Origin: Paenibacillus hemerocallicola
GTDB lineage: Bacteria; Bacillota; Bacilli; Paenibacillales; NBRC-103111
Assembly: GCF_006265175.1 (NCBI RefSeq)
Contig: NZ_VDCQ01000019.1
Location: forward strand, 1-64,000
Length of the DNA stretch: 64,000 bases
Direction of reading: 5' to 3'
In this document: piece after piece, positions 1,942 to 59,567 of the stretch
How the letters are laid out: each line of letters opens with the position of its first letter
How positions within the stretch are numbered: position 1 is the stretch's first letter
Notes under the pieces: generated by a model
Database searches by the model: none
What the model was told of the DNA's origin: nothing
Seen by the model: only the letters and a program-made list of their open reading frames with translations
Program-made: the position numbers and the translations under genes

Positions 1942-3768
1942 ATGAGAACCGACATTATAGTGTTTGCACAGCATTTCGAAGCTTTGCAGGAATGTTTATT
2001 CAACATAAGACTTTCGACTCAGTCTTCTTACCGTCTGATTGTAGTGGCAGAGGAAGGCGCCAACTCTATCAAGGAATGGTTGGAGCAAAACAGCAATGTC
2101 GTCCCGGTTGTCGGCAAAGACGGGATCGGGGTGGCGGCGGCATACAATCTGGGGGAGCGGGTCGCGGATACGGATCATGTCGTATTTATGCGCGACTACA
2201 TATACGTGACCGACGGGTGGCTGGAGCGTCTGAACGGCTGCATGGAGCGCAATGGGCGGGCAGCGATGGTCGGCCCGGTCAGCAGCGGCGTCAGCGGCAT
2301 GCAAAATGCCGACTTTCCAAGCGATAATCCGGCGGTCACCGAGCATTTCTCCGAAAGCCTCGGGGTCATGCGGGCCAATGAAAGCAAGCGGGTCCCCCGA
2401 TTGCTAAGCCATCTCGTCATGATTCGCAAAAGCGTGTTCGACGAGTTGGGCGGTTTCGACGAGCGATTCGAGCCGGAATCTTACGAAGACGACGATATGT
2501 GCTACCGTGCGCTGATGTCCGGTTACGAGATGTATGTGGCGAAGGACTGCTTCGTCCGGTATGAGCGGAAATTCGGACCGTACGCCGACGATCCGACCTG
2601 GTACCAGCGTCACATTCAGGCTAACGGCCATAGGGCTCTAGCAAAATGGGGCTTCGACCTGCCGGCCGCGCTCTATGCCTGGAGGCAGCCGATCACGATC
2701 AGCTTGTGCATGATCGTCAAGAACGAGGAGCAGACGTTGGCCCAATGCCTGTCGAGCGTAGAGGGAATCGCGGACGAGATCGTCATCGTGGACACCGGCT
2801 CGAGCGACAGAACGAAGGAAATTGCCGGACGGTTTACCGACCGCATCTACGATTTCGAATGGATCGACGATTTTGCCGCGGCGAGAAATTTCGCCTTCGG
2901 GCAGGCTAAGATGGATTACATGTTATGGATGGATGCGGACGATTCCTTCCTGCCCGCGGACGCGGACAAATTCCGCGAGCTGAAAAAGTCGCTGCAGTGG
3001 GATACGGACGCGGTCTCCATGGTATATAACCTGTCGTTCGACGAATACGGCAACGTGACGTCCAGTTTGCGCAGAAACCGGCTGGTGAAGCGCGAGAACG
3101 GATTCCGCTGGATCGGCGTCGTGCACGAATATCTTGCCGTTTACGGGAAGATCGAAAATGCGGACATTGGCGTAACGCACAACCGCCAGCATACGCAGAC
3201 TGATCGCAATTTGAACATTTATGCCAGAAAAGAAAAAGAGGGGGTGCCGTTCTCCTCGCGGGATTTGTATTATTACGCCAACGAGCTGTTCGATCATTCG
3301 ATGTGGGAAAAGTCCCTGCATTATTACGAACAGTTTCTCGACCGCAAGGACGGGTGGATCGAGGATGTGATCAACGCCTTCGGCCAGGCCGGCGATTGTC
3401 TGCACAAGCTGGACAAACGGCTGGAAGCGAAAGCGAAGGTGCTGCAATCGTTCGCCCATGCGCTGCCGCGTGCGGAGAACTGCTGCAGATTGGGCTACTA
3501 CCATATGGAGGAAGGCGATTATGCAGGCGCTGCGTTTTGGTACAAAACCGCCGCTTCGCTGGATAAGCCGGTCAGTGCCATGGCGCTTATGCGTCATGCG
3601 TGCTGGACCTGGCTGCCTCATCTGCAGCTATGCGTTTGCTACAACAAGCTGGGACGGAACGATTTGGCCAAGCATCACAATGAGATTGCCGGGACGTATT
3701 TGCCCGATGACGCCAGAATCCGGTCGAATAGAACTTATTTTGAAAGCTTGGAAGCTTCCCGCGAGTAG
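1942..3768 (+). CDS. Tandem family-2 glycosyltransferase with C-terminal TPR-like region
   Basis: A 608-residue protein. Residues 1-235 form a first GT-A (GT2-like) fold, with GGFDERF and EDDDMCYRA typical of sugar transferases, but the usual metal-binding loop reads FMRDY rather than NNDT. A second GT2 domain begins near 250 (SLCMIVKNEE, VDTGSSDRT) and has a clear metal-binding LWMDADD near 330. The remainder is helical and repeats (YYYANELFD, AGDCLHKL, GYYHMEEGDY), as in TPR arrays. It probably glycosylates a protein or cell-surface polymer in the cytosol; acceptor and sugar are unknown. The upstream SLH/collagen gene could supply a substrate, since bacterial collagen-like proteins are often glycosylated, but this is inference. 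The ATG at 1942 follows GGAG at 1927-1930. Confidence 0.82.
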   Translation: MRTDIIVFAQHFEALQECLFNIRLSTQSSYRLIVVAEEGANSIKEWLEQNSNVVPVVGKDGIGVAAAYNLGERVADTDHVVFMRDYIYVTDGWLERLNGCMERNGRAAMVGPVSSGVSGMQNADFPSDNPAVTEHFSESLGVMRANESKRVPRLLSHLVMIRKSVFDELGGFDERFEPESYEDDDMCYRALMSGYEMYVAKDCFVRYERKFGPYADDPTWYQRHIQANGHRALAKWGFDLPAALYAWRQPITISLCMIVKNEEQTLAQCLSSVEGIADEIVIVDTGSSDRTKEIAGRFTDRIYDFEWIDDFAAARNFAFGQAKMDYMLWMDADDSFLPADADKFRELKKSLQWDTDAVSMVYNLSFDEYGNVTSSLRRNRLVKRENGFRWIGVVHEYLAVYGKIENADIGVTHNRQHTQTDRNLNIYARKEKEGVPFSSRDLYYYANELFDHSMWEKSLHYYEQFLDRKDGWIEDVINAFGQAGDCLHKLDKRLEAKAKVLQSFAHALPRAENCCRLGYYHMEEGDYAGAAFWYKTAASLDKPVSAMALMRHACWTWLPHLQLCVCYNKLGRNDLAKHHNEIAGTYLPDDARIRSNRTYFESLEASRE

Positions 3769-52625: not shown

Positions 52626-52769
52626 ATGGGATTCGGAGTTGGCGGAGTTGGCGGAGTTGGCGGAATTGGCGGAGTTGGCGGTTGCGGAGTAGGAGGAGTG
52701 TTCACTTCTACTGGCGTCATTTTGGTGCTGTTCATCTTGTTGGTCATCGTTAGCCGCGCTTGGATCTAA
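52626..52769 (+). CDS. YjcZ-like small glycine-rich sporulation protein
   Basis: 47 residues from the ATG at 52626, eight bases after GGGGAGG. A Gly-Val repeat tract (GVGGVGGIGGVGG) precedes a single C-terminal membrane helix (VILVLFILLVIVSRAWI), the layout of YjcZ/SscA-type small proteins found in spores. A CATATGGTA at 52513-52521 fits the sigma-K -10 consensus, but the -35 spacing is poor. The coding DNA contains a 9-bp tandem repeat (ggcggagtt). Confidence 0.72.
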   Translation: MGFGVGGVGGVGGIGGVGGCGVGGVFTSTGVILVLFILLVIVSRAWI

Positions 52770-52816: not shown

Positions 52817-52977
52817 TCGTATGTAAATCGATATGCGTCGGTACGATGTCGCAATTCCGCATCGTAGAAAGTCGTCCCGTGTCAAAAAATAGGTATAAAG
52901 GAGGATGCAATGCGGAGTGCCCCTCCCTTATCCTTAGAATAAGGAATCGACACCACACACGCCAAAACTTCGAGAAC

Positions 52978-53080
52978 TTCACGATAACGGCAAACCCGGC
53001 GAAAGCCGGCGACGCAAAGCTAAAGGGGCTAAAGTCTTAGGTCGCGAGAAACGACGGACATGCCAGCCAGCTGCCGAACG
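52978..53080 (+). promoter_or_regulatory. Cyclic-di-GMP-I (GEMM) riboswitch aptamer
   Basis: The core blocks match the c-di-GMP-I aptamer in order: ggcaaacc, a helix capped by a gaaa tetraloop (ccggcgaaagccgg), the conserved gacgcaaagc, ggggctaaag, a variable hairpin, and the closing gccagccagctgccga that pairs back with the 5' cggc. A T-rich tract (53094-53105) lies about 14 bp downstream, with only a weak stem ahead of it, so the switching mechanism is unclear. The next gene starts about 100 bp downstream on the same strand. A cGAMP-responsive variant cannot be excluded by eye. Confidence 0.88.
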
Positions 53081-53178
53081 AAACGGATTGAAGTTTTTTT
53101 GTTTTGGGTATATAAGAACGGGGGAACAAACTGTCCTGTGCATATGGCCATTAAAAACAAAGAGCAAAGGAGTTGGGA

Positions 53179-53475
53179 ATGATGGACGGTGGGCTCAAAT
53201 GTGCGGAACACGGCTTTTACTTGAAATTGTGCGACGATTTTTTCGGGATGTACTACTCCTCGGAAGGGCCGAAGCTTTTCTTCAACCGGGATAAATACCG
53301 GTTGACCGATTCGAGATGGGACGTGGAGCTCGTCATCGGACGTAAAAACAATTTATTTATTTTTTATTGGCAGGGCGAAGTGAAAATTTCGTTCCGGTTC
53401 AGCAAAAACCAAGATTCGATCATTCAGCTGTACCGGCTGCTGCAGGAGCATGTCTCGTCCAAACGGCCCTCCTGA
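53179..53475 (+). CDS. Unrecognised 98-residue protein under riboswitch control
   Basis: 98 residues from the ATG at 53179 (a second ATG follows at once) behind AAAGGAG. There is no signal peptide or membrane helix. The pattern is beta-rich (FYLKLCDDFFGMYYSSEG, WDVELVIGRKNNLFIFYWQG, VKISFRFSKN) with a C-terminal helix (IIQLYRLLQEHV), perhaps a small PH-like or YcgR-unrelated fold, though I recognise no family. It is the only gene between the c-di-GMP riboswitch and a terminator, so it is the probable regulated target, linking it to motility, biofilm or sporulation decisions. Confidence 0.75.
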   Translation: MMDGGLKCAEHGFYLKLCDDFFGMYYSSEGPKLFFNRDKYRLTDSRWDVELVIGRKNNLFIFYWQGEVKISFRFSKNQDSIIQLYRLLQEHVSSKRPS

Positions 53476-53508: not shown

Positions 53509-53538
53509 CCTCGCATGCAAGCGTATGCGGGGCTTTTT
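53509..53538 (+). terminator. Terminator after the riboswitch-controlled gene
   Basis: A 9-bp stem (cctcgcatg / tatgcgggg, two G-T pairs) is followed by five T. Confidence 0.75.
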
Positions 53539-53550
53539 GCCGTCCGGCTC

Positions 53551-54666
53551 CTAGTGTTTGCGGGAAGCTTGTCCGCGTCTGCGGATGTTGCGGACGACCG
53601 TGCCCGTCAAAGCCAGCAGCAGCGGCACCGAGAAGCAGATCGCGATAAACGGCCAGACGACCGTCCAGCATTCGAACGCCTCCGACTCGGTCGGGAACAT
53701 CGTCACGGATAAGAAAAGGATCGCCACCGTGATCGGATAAATGAGCAGCCGGTCGTCTTTAAGGTTGAACAGCCTGGAGGCCGTCAAGTTCAGCACGAAC
53801 AGGCAGATCGATATTTTCATATACGAGCCGGCGATGAGCGTAATGCCCACGATCGATTCGATCCTTTCGAAAATGCCGGTAATTTCGATTACTCTGGCTA
53901 CCTCGTACAGCGAATATTTACGCTCGGCGGCCGACTTCCCGAACGTCATGATCGTACAGGCGATGACGATGCTGAAGACGAGCATATGGAAGACGAGCGC
54001 CCCGTATAAGGGCTTCGTCCACTTCTTTTTCGTATCCGTGCGCACAAAGCAAAATATGGAAGTAAACAGAAATATTTCGGAGTAGGGCCAGCCGTAAGTC
54101 AAATACGTGCCGTATGCGATCGGCTTCCACCCGTCGTTGAATTGTGGAAGCAGCGCTCCGGGGTCATAGTCGGGAATGGCGAACAGCAGCACGAACGCTA
54201 CCGTAACGATTACGATGAAAATCAGCAGCCCGAACATGCGTGCCATAACCTCGATACCTGCTCGTACCGTAAGAGCGGCAGCCACTAAAGTAAAGGCGTG
54301 GAAAATGTACATCGGCGTCTCTACCATCATCGAGCTGGTCAGAAAAAGTCCGAGCCCTTGCGTAATGTTGGCAGTCATCATAAACAACGAGAGCAGGAAG
54401 GGGACGATGACGAGTACTGTAAACCAGGCGCCGAACATGTCGCGAAAATATTGCACGAACACGATGGACGGGTGCTGTCTGTACAAATACAAAACGAGTG
54501 CGAGCATAAGCATGCCGCACAAGCCGGAAAGCAGCATCGACAACCAAGCTCCGTTATGGGCGGCTTGGATAACCGGGTTCGGAATGAAGACGATCGCCGA
54601 ACTCGTAATGAAGGATAGGAACAGCAGCGTTACTTGCTGCGGGCTTATCGTTGCCTTGTTGTTCAT
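53551..54666 (-). CDS. Spore germination receptor B subunit (GerAB/GerKB family)
   Basis: 371 residues from the ATG at 54666 with GGGGAGTG upstream; ten hydrophobic helices in the APC-transporter-like fold (SPQQVTLLFLSFITSSAIVF, SLYEVARVIEITGIFERIES). The B subunit binds the germinant in the spore inner membrane. It is the last gene of the operon A, C, small D-like, B on the minus strand. Confidence 0.92.
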   Translation of the reverse strand: MNNKATISPQQVTLLFLSFITSSAIVFIPNPVIQAAHNGAWLSMLLSGLCGMLMLALVLYLYRQHPSIVFVQYFRDMFGAWFTVLVIVPFLLSLFMMTANITQGLGLFLTSSMMVETPMYIFHAFTLVAAALTVRAGIEVMARMFGLLIFIVIVTVAFVLLFAIPDYDPGALLPQFNDGWKPIAYGTYLTYGWPYSEIFLFTSIFCFVRTDTKKKWTKPLYGALVFHMLVFSIVIACTIMTFGKSAAERKYSLYEVARVIEITGIFERIESIVGITLIAGSYMKISICLFVLNLTASRLFNLKDDRLLIYPITVAILFLSVTMFPTESEAFECWTVVWPFIAICFSVPLLLALTGTVVRNIRRRGQASRKH

Positions 54667-54697
54667 CGATTCACTCCCCTGCATCCGGCGGTGCGAT

Positions 54698-54937
54698 TTA
54701 CGACGGCTTGAACATCCGGATGATCGCTTTGGCGGGCCAGGCATAGATGGAATAAAGGATCGTATCCAGATTGGGCCACTGCTTCTGCAAAACGAAGAGA
54801 ATTCCCGCATATGCGGAAAGCGCCGTCAGCGCCCCGTATACGGCGAGTTCCTTCCGGCTGCTCCGTTTCAGGGCGGACGTATTCGAAGCAAACATCAGGG
54901 CGTATAGGACGATCGTGACCGTAAACCTGATGAGCAT
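54698..54937 (-). CDS. Small two-helix membrane protein, putative germination receptor D subunit
   Basis: 79 residues from the ATG at 54937, preceded by GGAGG. Two membrane helices (MLIRFTVTIVLYALMFA and AVYGALTALSAYAGILFVL) and a basic C-terminus match the size and layout of the D subunits encoded in many ger operons. It lies between the C and B genes. Assignment rests on context and topology. Confidence 0.6.
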   Translation of the reverse strand: MLIRFTVTIVLYALMFASNTSALKRSSRKELAVYGALTALSAYAGILFVLQKQWPNLDTILYSIYAWPAKAIIRMFKPS

Positions 54938-57830: not shown

Positions 57831-59396
57831 TCAGCCCCGGCGGTGAAGGCTGACCTTGTTGCGGCCATTGCGCTTGGATTCGTACAGAGCCGCATCGGCG
57901 TCCCGGAGGACCGATTCCAGCGAGTCGCCGCCGCCTGTCGCCGACAGGGCTGCGGCTGCGCCGAAGCTGGCCGTTACGGCGAGCGGGCCGCCGGTCGTCG
58001 GCATCGGAGCGGCTTCCAGCGCCGTCCGAATGCGTTCGGCGAGCGCCCCGGCATCCTCCAGAGCCGCGTTCGGCAAGACGATCACGAATTCTTCGCCGCC
58101 ATAGCGGGCGAAGAGCGCCCCGTGGGGGAGATGTTGACGGCAAACGGATACGACATGCACGATCAGCCGGTCGCCCGTGTCGTGTCCATACGTGTCGTTG
58201 ACGCGCTTGAAGCGGTCGATGTCGAACAAAATGAACGAGACGGGCTCGTTTCGGCTCCGCGCCTCATCCAGCATCTTTTTGCTCCGGTGCAGCAACTGCG
58301 CGCGATTGAATATGCCGGTCAGTCCGTCGTAGTATGCCTGCTGCTCGAGCTGCCGCTGCATCCGCTTCTGCTCCGTGACGTCGATCAGCATGAGCAGACT
58401 GCCCGCCCGCTCGCCGTTGCGGAGCCGGACCGCCGAGGAGCGGACCTGATAGTAGGAGATTTCGGCTTTCGCAGCCCACGTCAGCTCATCCTGCGTGCCG
58501 TCCGCCAGGAGGTCGATCGGGAATGCTTCTCCGGTCATTTGCGTCCACGCCTCATCCAGCTTGCGACCGATCATGGAAGCGTGAAGCGCGGGAATCATTC
58601 GGCCGACGGCCGCATTGTAATCGACGAGCCTCCCCGAAGCATCCAGCACGAGCACGCCTTCTCTCATGCTTTCAAAAAGGCGTTCCTTCGCGATTGGCAC
58701 GATCGTGAAGGTTCGCGTCGAGATGATCGCCCATATGTACATCGCCGATGTGAAGCACATGACGATCGGCACCGGATCGCTGCCCGCCGGCGTCGCGTTC
58801 ATCAAATACAGGAAGGCGGCGATCATCGGAACGAACTGTCCGGCGATCAGGGCGGTCAGCTGCAGCCGGTACGCTTCGTTCGTCCGGTTCCACTGCCGTA
58901 GCAGCAGAACAGCGCCCGCCAGCAGGCAGCCAAAGGTGTAAGCGCCGTGCACGATGTACCATTGTCCGGCTTCGATGTCGACGAGCGACGACGGTCCGGT
59001 TTCCCGGAAGAAGACGGATTTATAGAAGAGATGATGCCAATCGTTCGTAGCCACCAGGGCAAAAGAGAGGAACGGAATGACGAGCATCGCCGCAGCGGCT
59101 TTGCCTGACACCGGCCTCCCGGTATAGCGCAGCACGAGCAGCAGGCCCAGCACGGGGGCGAACGGCATGCCTGCGTACTCAACGGTTGTCCAGAATTTGA
59201 CCTCCCGCATCGTCTCGCTTGCCAGCTCGAAGGCGAAGCCGAATATGTAGACGGCCTGTGCGGCGGTATACAGCAAATAGATCCGGGAACCCGGCATTTC
59301 CGCTCTGCGGATGTAAGCATATATAAACAGGAACACGCTGAGCACGCCCGAGGTCGTGACGAGCGTAATGTACATTGTAAGTTGGGAATTCGTCAT
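57831..59396 (-). CDS. Membrane diguanylate cyclase (7TM-PAS-GGDEF)
   Basis: 521 residues from the ATG at 59396 (GAGGT upstream). An N-terminal region with seven to eight membrane helices resembles HisKA_7TM sensors (about 1-225), a PAS-like domain follows (VLVLDASGRLVDYNAAVGR, about 240-340), and the GGDEF domain ends the protein (about 350-520) with RYGGEEFVIV, the active-site loop in the GGEEF form. An inhibitory RxxD site is not evident at the usual place. It should make c-di-GMP from two GTP. Monocistronic. Confidence 0.92.
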   Translation of the reverse strand: MTNSQLTMYITLVTTSGVLSVFLFIYAYIRRAEMPGSRIYLLYTAAQAVYIFGFAFELASETMREVKFWTTVEYAGMPFAPVLGLLLVLRYTGRPVSGKAAAAMLVIPFLSFALVATNDWHHLFYKSVFFRETGPSSLVDIEAGQWYIVHGAYTFGCLLAGAVLLLRQWNRTNEAYRLQLTALIAGQFVPMIAAFLYLMNATPAGSDPVPIVMCFTSAMYIWAIISTRTFTIVPIAKERLFESMREGVLVLDASGRLVDYNAAVGRMIPALHASMIGRKLDEAWTQMTGEAFPIDLLADGTQDELTWAAKAEISYYQVRSSAVRLRNGERAGSLLMLIDVTEQKRMQRQLEQQAYYDGLTGIFNRAQLLHRSKKMLDEARSRNEPVSFILFDIDRFKRVNDTYGHDTGDRLIVHVVSVCRQHLPHGALFARYGGEEFVIVLPNAALEDAGALAERIRTALEAAPMPTTGGPLAVTASFGAAAALSATGGGDSLESVLRDADAALYESKRNGRNKVSLHRRG

Positions 59397-59541
59397 GGTT
59401 ATACCTCGTTGTCGAAGCAGGATGTAGGGAACGCCTGTCCATACCCCCATCGTACCATACCGAAAGTACGCGACGATATGGGATATTAGGGCCTGTTTGA
59501 CGCGAATGCGAACAGCTTCCGTTCCGGGCTCCTTTCCATGC

Positions 59542-59567
59542 AAAAAGACGGCCTAGCGCGGTCGTCT
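59542..59567 (-). terminator. Minus-strand terminator after the second HesB-like gene
   Basis: An 8-bp stem (agacggcc / ggtcgtct, one wobble) is followed on the minus strand by five T. Confidence 0.7.

Follow-up and report, generated by a model that had tools for sequence, protein, structure and literature searches.

The closest described relatives of the element discussed here are class I riboswitches for the second messenger cyclic diguanosine monophosphate (c-di-GMP). In Clostridioides difficile such aptamers precede genes, three of the repressed ones being hypothetical, and act as off switches, except at one gene that rose through its promoter (PMC6200980). In Bacillus thuringiensis the class I switch Bc1 binds c-di-GMP, and its terminator T1 unfolds with the ligand, yet the downstream genes did not respond (PMC11218506). 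Here we describe a c-di-GMP-I aptamer and the gene for a 98-residue protein behind it, found in Paenibacillus hemerocallicola within the first 64,000 nt of contig NZ_VDCQ01000019.1, a stretch that we call the window.

A comparison of the whole window with 4227 Rfam families (cmscan) returned a single match above gathering, RF01051 (c-di-GMP-I), at 69.9 bits, with the cut-off at 35 (E-value 1.2e-11), and covering model positions 1-87 of 87. A sequence-only reading of this DNA had proposed both a c-di-GMP-I riboswitch and the Rfam GEMM-I covariance search that now bears it out, with a start (52978) that was off by one base. That reading had also seen a single gene before the next terminator, with a good ribosome-binding site, and this stands as well (Table 1): the frame is followed by a terminator-like hairpin, which proper spans 53509-53532, and then by a spore germination permease gene on the other strand (53551-54810). 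Since this neighbour is convergent and a terminator follows the frame, the aptamer has one evident target. Like other members of the class (RF01051 / RF03167), it combines a full-length match over gathering, a G at the equivalent of position 20 and a T-run platform downstream. The RNA is an ordinary, well-made riboswitch; the target family is new.

The arrangement is retained among relatives. All 83 genomes with a clear orthologue were examined, and 76 carry an aptamer upstream on the same strand, an orientation checked for all 76; the family motif lies downstream on the aptamer's strand in every one of them. Five of these aptamers (L132, L133, L136, L137, L141) match RF03167 at 55.4-57.6 bits, under that model's cut-off of 59, with E-values of 2e-10 or better, and another (L023) sits 496 nt upstream of its gene. 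A pair that recurs in 76 of 83 genomes is not a chance association, and dedicated riboswitch control of the 98-residue gene is well supported; conservation of the pair was a check proposed with the sequence-only reading. That reading also saw in the protein a possible effector of c-di-GMP physiology. The association is good evidence that the dose of the protein would follow c-di-GMP, and is not evidence of the protein's job.

Seven orthologues are without a detectable aptamer. Five of them (L016, L017, L018, L025, L031) were searched again down to an E-value of 0.05 and gave none, and two (L043, L045) gave none at gathering, the only level applied to them. By eye, L018, L043 and L045 keep damaged but recognisable aptamers, L016 and L017 retain only fragments together with a terminator, and L025 has lost the aptamer and carries an in-frame stop in the gene. 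Aptamer loss is thus rare, and the gene outlived the aptamer, with an unbroken frame, in six of the seven losses. A separate observation concerns genus g7 (L046, L047, L049-L053, L043, L045), in which the aptamers score 40-50 bits and seem to be decaying, with L043 and L045 below the cut-off. The gene and terminator are kept there despite the weak aptamers, a natural series for the loss of ligand control.

The same reading had called the target a small orphan, a label that is incorrect, since the gene is one of a conserved family under selection. Against four named species, the ratio of nonsynonymous to synonymous substitution rates (dN/dS) of the window gene is 0.03, 0.13, 0.16 and 0.17, which confirms that it is coding and under purifying selection. 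The gene is carried by four named species with cultured strains, the closest named genome found being that of Paenibacillus mesophilus (Paenibacillaceae; 97% protein identity). A profile of 28 orthologues (alignment A1, 28 rows) found it in 80 of the 104 genomes that make up its own family, f1. At the level of the order 102 of 392 genomes matched: 83 hold clear orthologues (E-value 1.6e-13 or better), and the remaining 19 give weak matches (5e-9 to 9e-6) that are members of a sister family. Each of the 83 genomes has one copy of the clear orthologue, with an additional weak sister-type copy in G100. Among 398 genomes sampled across the class there were two matches, the source genome itself and a sister-family member from the same order; among the genomes sampled, the 98-residue gene is restricted to its own order. 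A plasmid search for the family gave no match, and 34 candidate stretches in viral contigs included no relative. Eleven residues are invariant in the family (G30, P31, N36, L42, W47, D48, E50, G54, Y63, W64, G66). In the titles and abstract openings of literature on Paenibacillus c-di-GMP riboswitches there was no named account of the gene, and the main text of an RNA-seq study of P. riograndensis (PMC5670726) contains neither the word c-di-GMP nor GEMM.

The ligand is probably c-di-GMP, judging from the nucleotide that governs selectivity. We take the place of position 20 within the window aptamer from Vc2 numbering; its equivalent is a G in the window (GGCAAA) and throughout the set of 76 aptamers, 75 of them read by script and one by eye. 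The GEMM-Ib subclass of GEMM-I senses cyclic GMP-AMP (cGAMP) and is marked by A20, and an A20G change turned one such switch to c-di-GMP (PMC6456294). A GEMM-Ib aptamer sensing cGAMP would agree with the family score, which says nothing on selectivity. An A at this position is absent from the window aptamer, as it is from the other aptamers of the set, and we consider cGAMP sensing very improbable.

The expression platforms resemble terminators. Within 75 nt 3' of the aptamer, a run of at least five T occurs in 65 of the 76 leaders, compared with 9.0% in same-base shuffles and 11.8% in other stretches of the same loci, and the platform sequences differ from genus to genus. In the genus of the window, the two flanks of the aptamer pair across it to make the terminator stem, in place of a hairpin further downstream, a feature that may set it apart within the c-di-GMP-I class. 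Across eight leaders, drawn from the genus of the window, a sister genus and a single genome from a different family, 96.9% of the cells in this enclosing stem are paired, compared with 20.6-62.5% when slid; the chance of such a pairing run in shuffled 5' flanks is 0.001-0.11 for single leaders. Unconstrained folding of the window leader likewise returned an enclosing helix around an aptamer-like core. In genus g21, for which all 30 leaders were considered, a downstream terminator (87.0% paired) is in competition with an antiterminator made of the aptamer 3' flank with the terminator 5' arm and loop. This antiterminator is 89.2% paired, compared with 12.2-64.3% when slid, with two pairs changed on both sides and a covariation score reached by 44 of 500 shuffles. 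With an enclosing stem in the window's genus and an antiterminator that uses the aptamer 3' flank in g21, the folded aptamer can favor termination. Leaders of genera g7 and g12 (26 of 31 aligned) appear by eye to have a similar competition.

Upstream of the aptamer lies a conserved promoter block (52888-52934), consisting of a palindrome, ATAGTTC-N4-GAACTAT, then 22 nt and TATNCT. Of the 76 leaders, 71 have TATNCT 20-80 nt ahead of the aptamer, compared with 12.8% in shuffles, and a similar block is seen by eye at the corresponding position ahead of orthologues from other genera. The window's own form of the element is the only exact site in the 9.65-Mb genome; at three mismatches there is one more, and the reversed control also yields one. 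Among 12 genomes of g21, nine contain the full pattern TAGTTCN4GAACTA-N(21-25)-TATNCT, with nine hits in total, every one in this leader. A looser pattern (up to two mismatches, five genomes) finds 13 sites, five of them in this leader, and the palindrome alone at one mismatch is rarer than its reversed control in six of six genomes. As a mark of a regulon the palindrome was rejected, the looser searches having given no regulon.

Table 1. Features of the riboswitch locus (window coordinates).
Feature	Position	Strand	Basis
Element upstream of the promoter, own-genus version of ATAGTTC-N4-GAACTAT; candidate regulator site	52888..52907	+	Conserved
Likely -10 element TATCCT	52929..52934	+	Transcription start probably ~7 nt downstream
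5' arm AACTTCGA of terminator stem enclosing the aptamer	52966..52973	+	Pairs with 53088-53095
c-di-GMP-I (GEMM-I) riboswitch aptamer	52979..53078	+	RF01051, 69.9 bits, full length; genome-wide search agrees
3' arm TTGAAGTT and T-run of enclosing terminator	53088..53100	+	Sequence and pairing
Ribosome-binding site AAAGGAG	53166..53172	+	Sequence; 6 bases ahead of ATG
98-residue protein, predicted pleckstrin-homology-like; unnamed family	53179..53475	+	Open frame, ATG start; orthologues, dN/dS, structure models
Intrinsic terminator 3' of the 98-residue gene	53509..53538	+	10-pair stem and T-run

Platform anatomy suggests that c-di-GMP would shut the gene off, and we regard this polarity as probable, the same polarity as in the C. 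difficile switches, whose target genes differ. Several results weigh against it. The enclosing stem shows weak covariation, with no pair changed on both sides, and the g21 terminator shows none; dinucleotide z-scores of -1.32 and -0.04 reveal no extra stability, the second being that of the window leader, which is no stabler than its shuffles. When the aptamer core was forced in equilibrium folds of 59 leaders (17 of the 76 were left out for want of recognisable anchors or a T-run, and a single retained leader yielded no terminator), the terminator probability rose in 15 and fell in 21, including the window, where it went from 0.90 to 0.65. Such a fall is what would be expected of an on switch, in which the bound ligand would break up the terminator and the protein would act in sessile cells with high c-di-GMP; the unfolding of Bc1 T1 by c-di-GMP and the surface adhesins found in some sister-family loci (below) point the same way. 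We consider this possible, on the unlikely side, given that a T-run stem encloses the aptamer in g1, g2 and f7 leaders, so that a folded aptamer should favor the terminator, that the g21 antiterminator uses the aptamer 3' flank, and that the C. difficile switches are of the off type.

The silence of the genes behind Bc1 despite ligand binding is a fair warning for any such deduction of polarity, and it also lends itself to a reading in which the aptamer binds c-di-GMP and exerts little control over the gene, or is losing that control, while the conserved promoter element is the true regulator. The conservation of the promoter region agrees with this, as do the seven orthologues without a detectable aptamer, six of them with unbroken frames, which show that riboswitch control is not indispensable. 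It is nevertheless improbable, for an idle element would not be expected to stay paired with its gene in 76 of 83 genomes while platforms differ between genera, nor to keep a T-run at terminator distance in 65 of 76 leaders. Antisense action on the convergent gene was also considered, as c-di-GMP riboswitches showed the highest antisense tendency in one survey (PMC9943018), and was rejected: a terminator lies between, and the neighbour is not recurrent in other genera.

The sequence-only reading had left the protein unrecognised and without family resemblance. The first part holds for sequence searches, in that the protein exceeded no cut-off in Pfam, NCBIfam or PADLOC (best E-values 0.06 for Pfam and 0.069 for NCBIfam) and a PDB sequence search gave only three matches at an E-value of about 1, which were rejected. 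The second does not, as there is a conserved family, a distant sister family and a set of structure models that resemble a known fold. The pleckstrin-homology (PH) superfold is a seven-stranded barrel capped by a C-terminal helix. The AlphaFold model of the window protein has six strands and a C-terminal helix (predicted local distance difference test, pLDDT, 66.9), and in the model for the orthologue from P. flagellatus, which shares 80% identity, seven strands are present together with the helix (pLDDT 72.6); each job comprised five sequences, and the other four models per job scored 50-63. These models support a PH-like fold for the 98-residue protein. Their confidence is only moderate, and Foldseek with both returned no match reaching an E-value of 0.001, two points that tell against the assignment. 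Identity to PH superfold proteins (PH, PRU, FERM-C, the TFIIH p62/Tfb1 N-domain and the Shewanella bacterial PH domain 3hsa) is only 5-18%, the 28 family members have no match to PH-like Pfam families at E-values up to 1, and the protein is a stand-alone one of 98 residues.

Two other assignments were tried. A match to the NCBIfam lipoprotein model Omp28 is seen for 13 of the 28 members (best E-value 0.0015) and was treated as chance, because the window protein reaches only 12.3 bits against a cut-off of 150, over 41 residues. PilZ c-di-GMP receptors carry the motifs RxxxR and (D/N)xSxxG; there is no Pfam PilZ match at E-values up to 1, the RDKYR of the window protein is not conserved in the family and was taken as chance, and the second motif was not seen by eye in alignment A1.

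Gene neighbourhoods were compared across 21 orthologue loci and the window. The window genes that recur in another genus are the 98-residue family, an overlapping frame on the minus strand of the leader and, in one locus, a gene 6.7 kb away; two congeners have a few genes in common with other genera, 3.9-8.3 kb away. A DHH-type gene, for which Pfam offers only DHHA1 below cut-off, comes next in 8 of the 22 loci (within 0.6 kb in six) and is missing from the window. With so little shared context, the neighbourhood does not fix the function, and the germination permease is a local neighbour. The sister family (alignment A3; ~143-167 residues, family f10) aligns to the 98-residue family with an hhalign probability of 98.9 over 68 columns; it is extended at both ends and sits in a two-component locus. 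In 18 of its 20 matches, those examined (L073-L090), no aptamer lies directly upstream. A receiver gene is directly upstream in 15 (14 by pattern, one by eye), and the one scanned contains Pfam Response_reg, Trans_reg_C and BTAD. A gene of more than 300 residues follows directly in 12, among them one histidine kinase (by eye) and one gene whose product has bacterial Ig and collagen-binding domains. Four of the 18 loci contain a c-di-GMP-I-GGC aptamer within ~2.4 kb, directly ahead of members of one gene cluster, of which one scanned member has a transglutaminase core. The superfamily is therefore loosely tied to surface adhesion and c-di-GMP, and a place beside two-component regulators and some adhesins makes a role in surface or motility switching plausible. 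In locus L089, a divergent copy of the sister family (2898-3335) comes immediately after a gene resembling an Rhs-repeat end (by eye), as immunity genes are placed.

The model that we favor, with moderate confidence as a whole, is a single-gene unit of Paenibacillus relatives under an off switch. The conserved promoter would start the RNA ~40 nt ahead of the class I aptamer, and bound c-di-GMP would stabilise the aptamer closing helix. In the genus of the window this helix would continue into AACUUCG/UGAAGUU and then the U-run, such that bound aptamer equals terminator and the gene is off. At low c-di-GMP, RNA polymerase would read through and a small cytoplasmic PH-fold protein would be made, most likely an adaptor for protein-protein or membrane-surface contact that is needed in the motile or dispersing state. 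The off polarity and the low-c-di-GMP adaptor role are our best guesses; the role is drawn solely from the polarity and the neighbours of a distant sister family, which counts against it. A wider proposal, a so far undescribed c-di-GMP circuit in which the aptamer forms the loop of the terminator and a stand-alone PH-fold adaptor made only as c-di-GMP falls acts, family-wide, on a surface-adhesion two-component pathway of the sort hinted at by the sister-family neighbours, is tentative and rather doubtful.

Other observations concern the surroundings of the locus. The P. hemerocallicola genome (9.65 Mb in 167 contigs) contains eight c-di-GMP-I aptamers, one of which (L005) precedes a 76-residue frame without a Pfam match. 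A 7TM-PAS-GGDEF protein (Pfam), possibly a diguanylate cyclase, is encoded at 57831-59543 on the minus strand, 4.4 kb from the riboswitch gene. The small frame at 52626-52769 is glycine-rich with a hydrophobic end and by eye looks like a YjcZ-type sporulation peptide; Pfam and NCBIfam give it no match at E-values up to 1.

The c-di-GMP responses of Paenibacillus relatives look little studied. That a single-copy gene has stayed with its aptamer in 76 of 83 genomes, even as the intervening platform was rewritten, strongly suggests a core c-di-GMP output, and the conserved aptamer-gene pair points to a dedicated job for this protein family in the c-di-GMP response.
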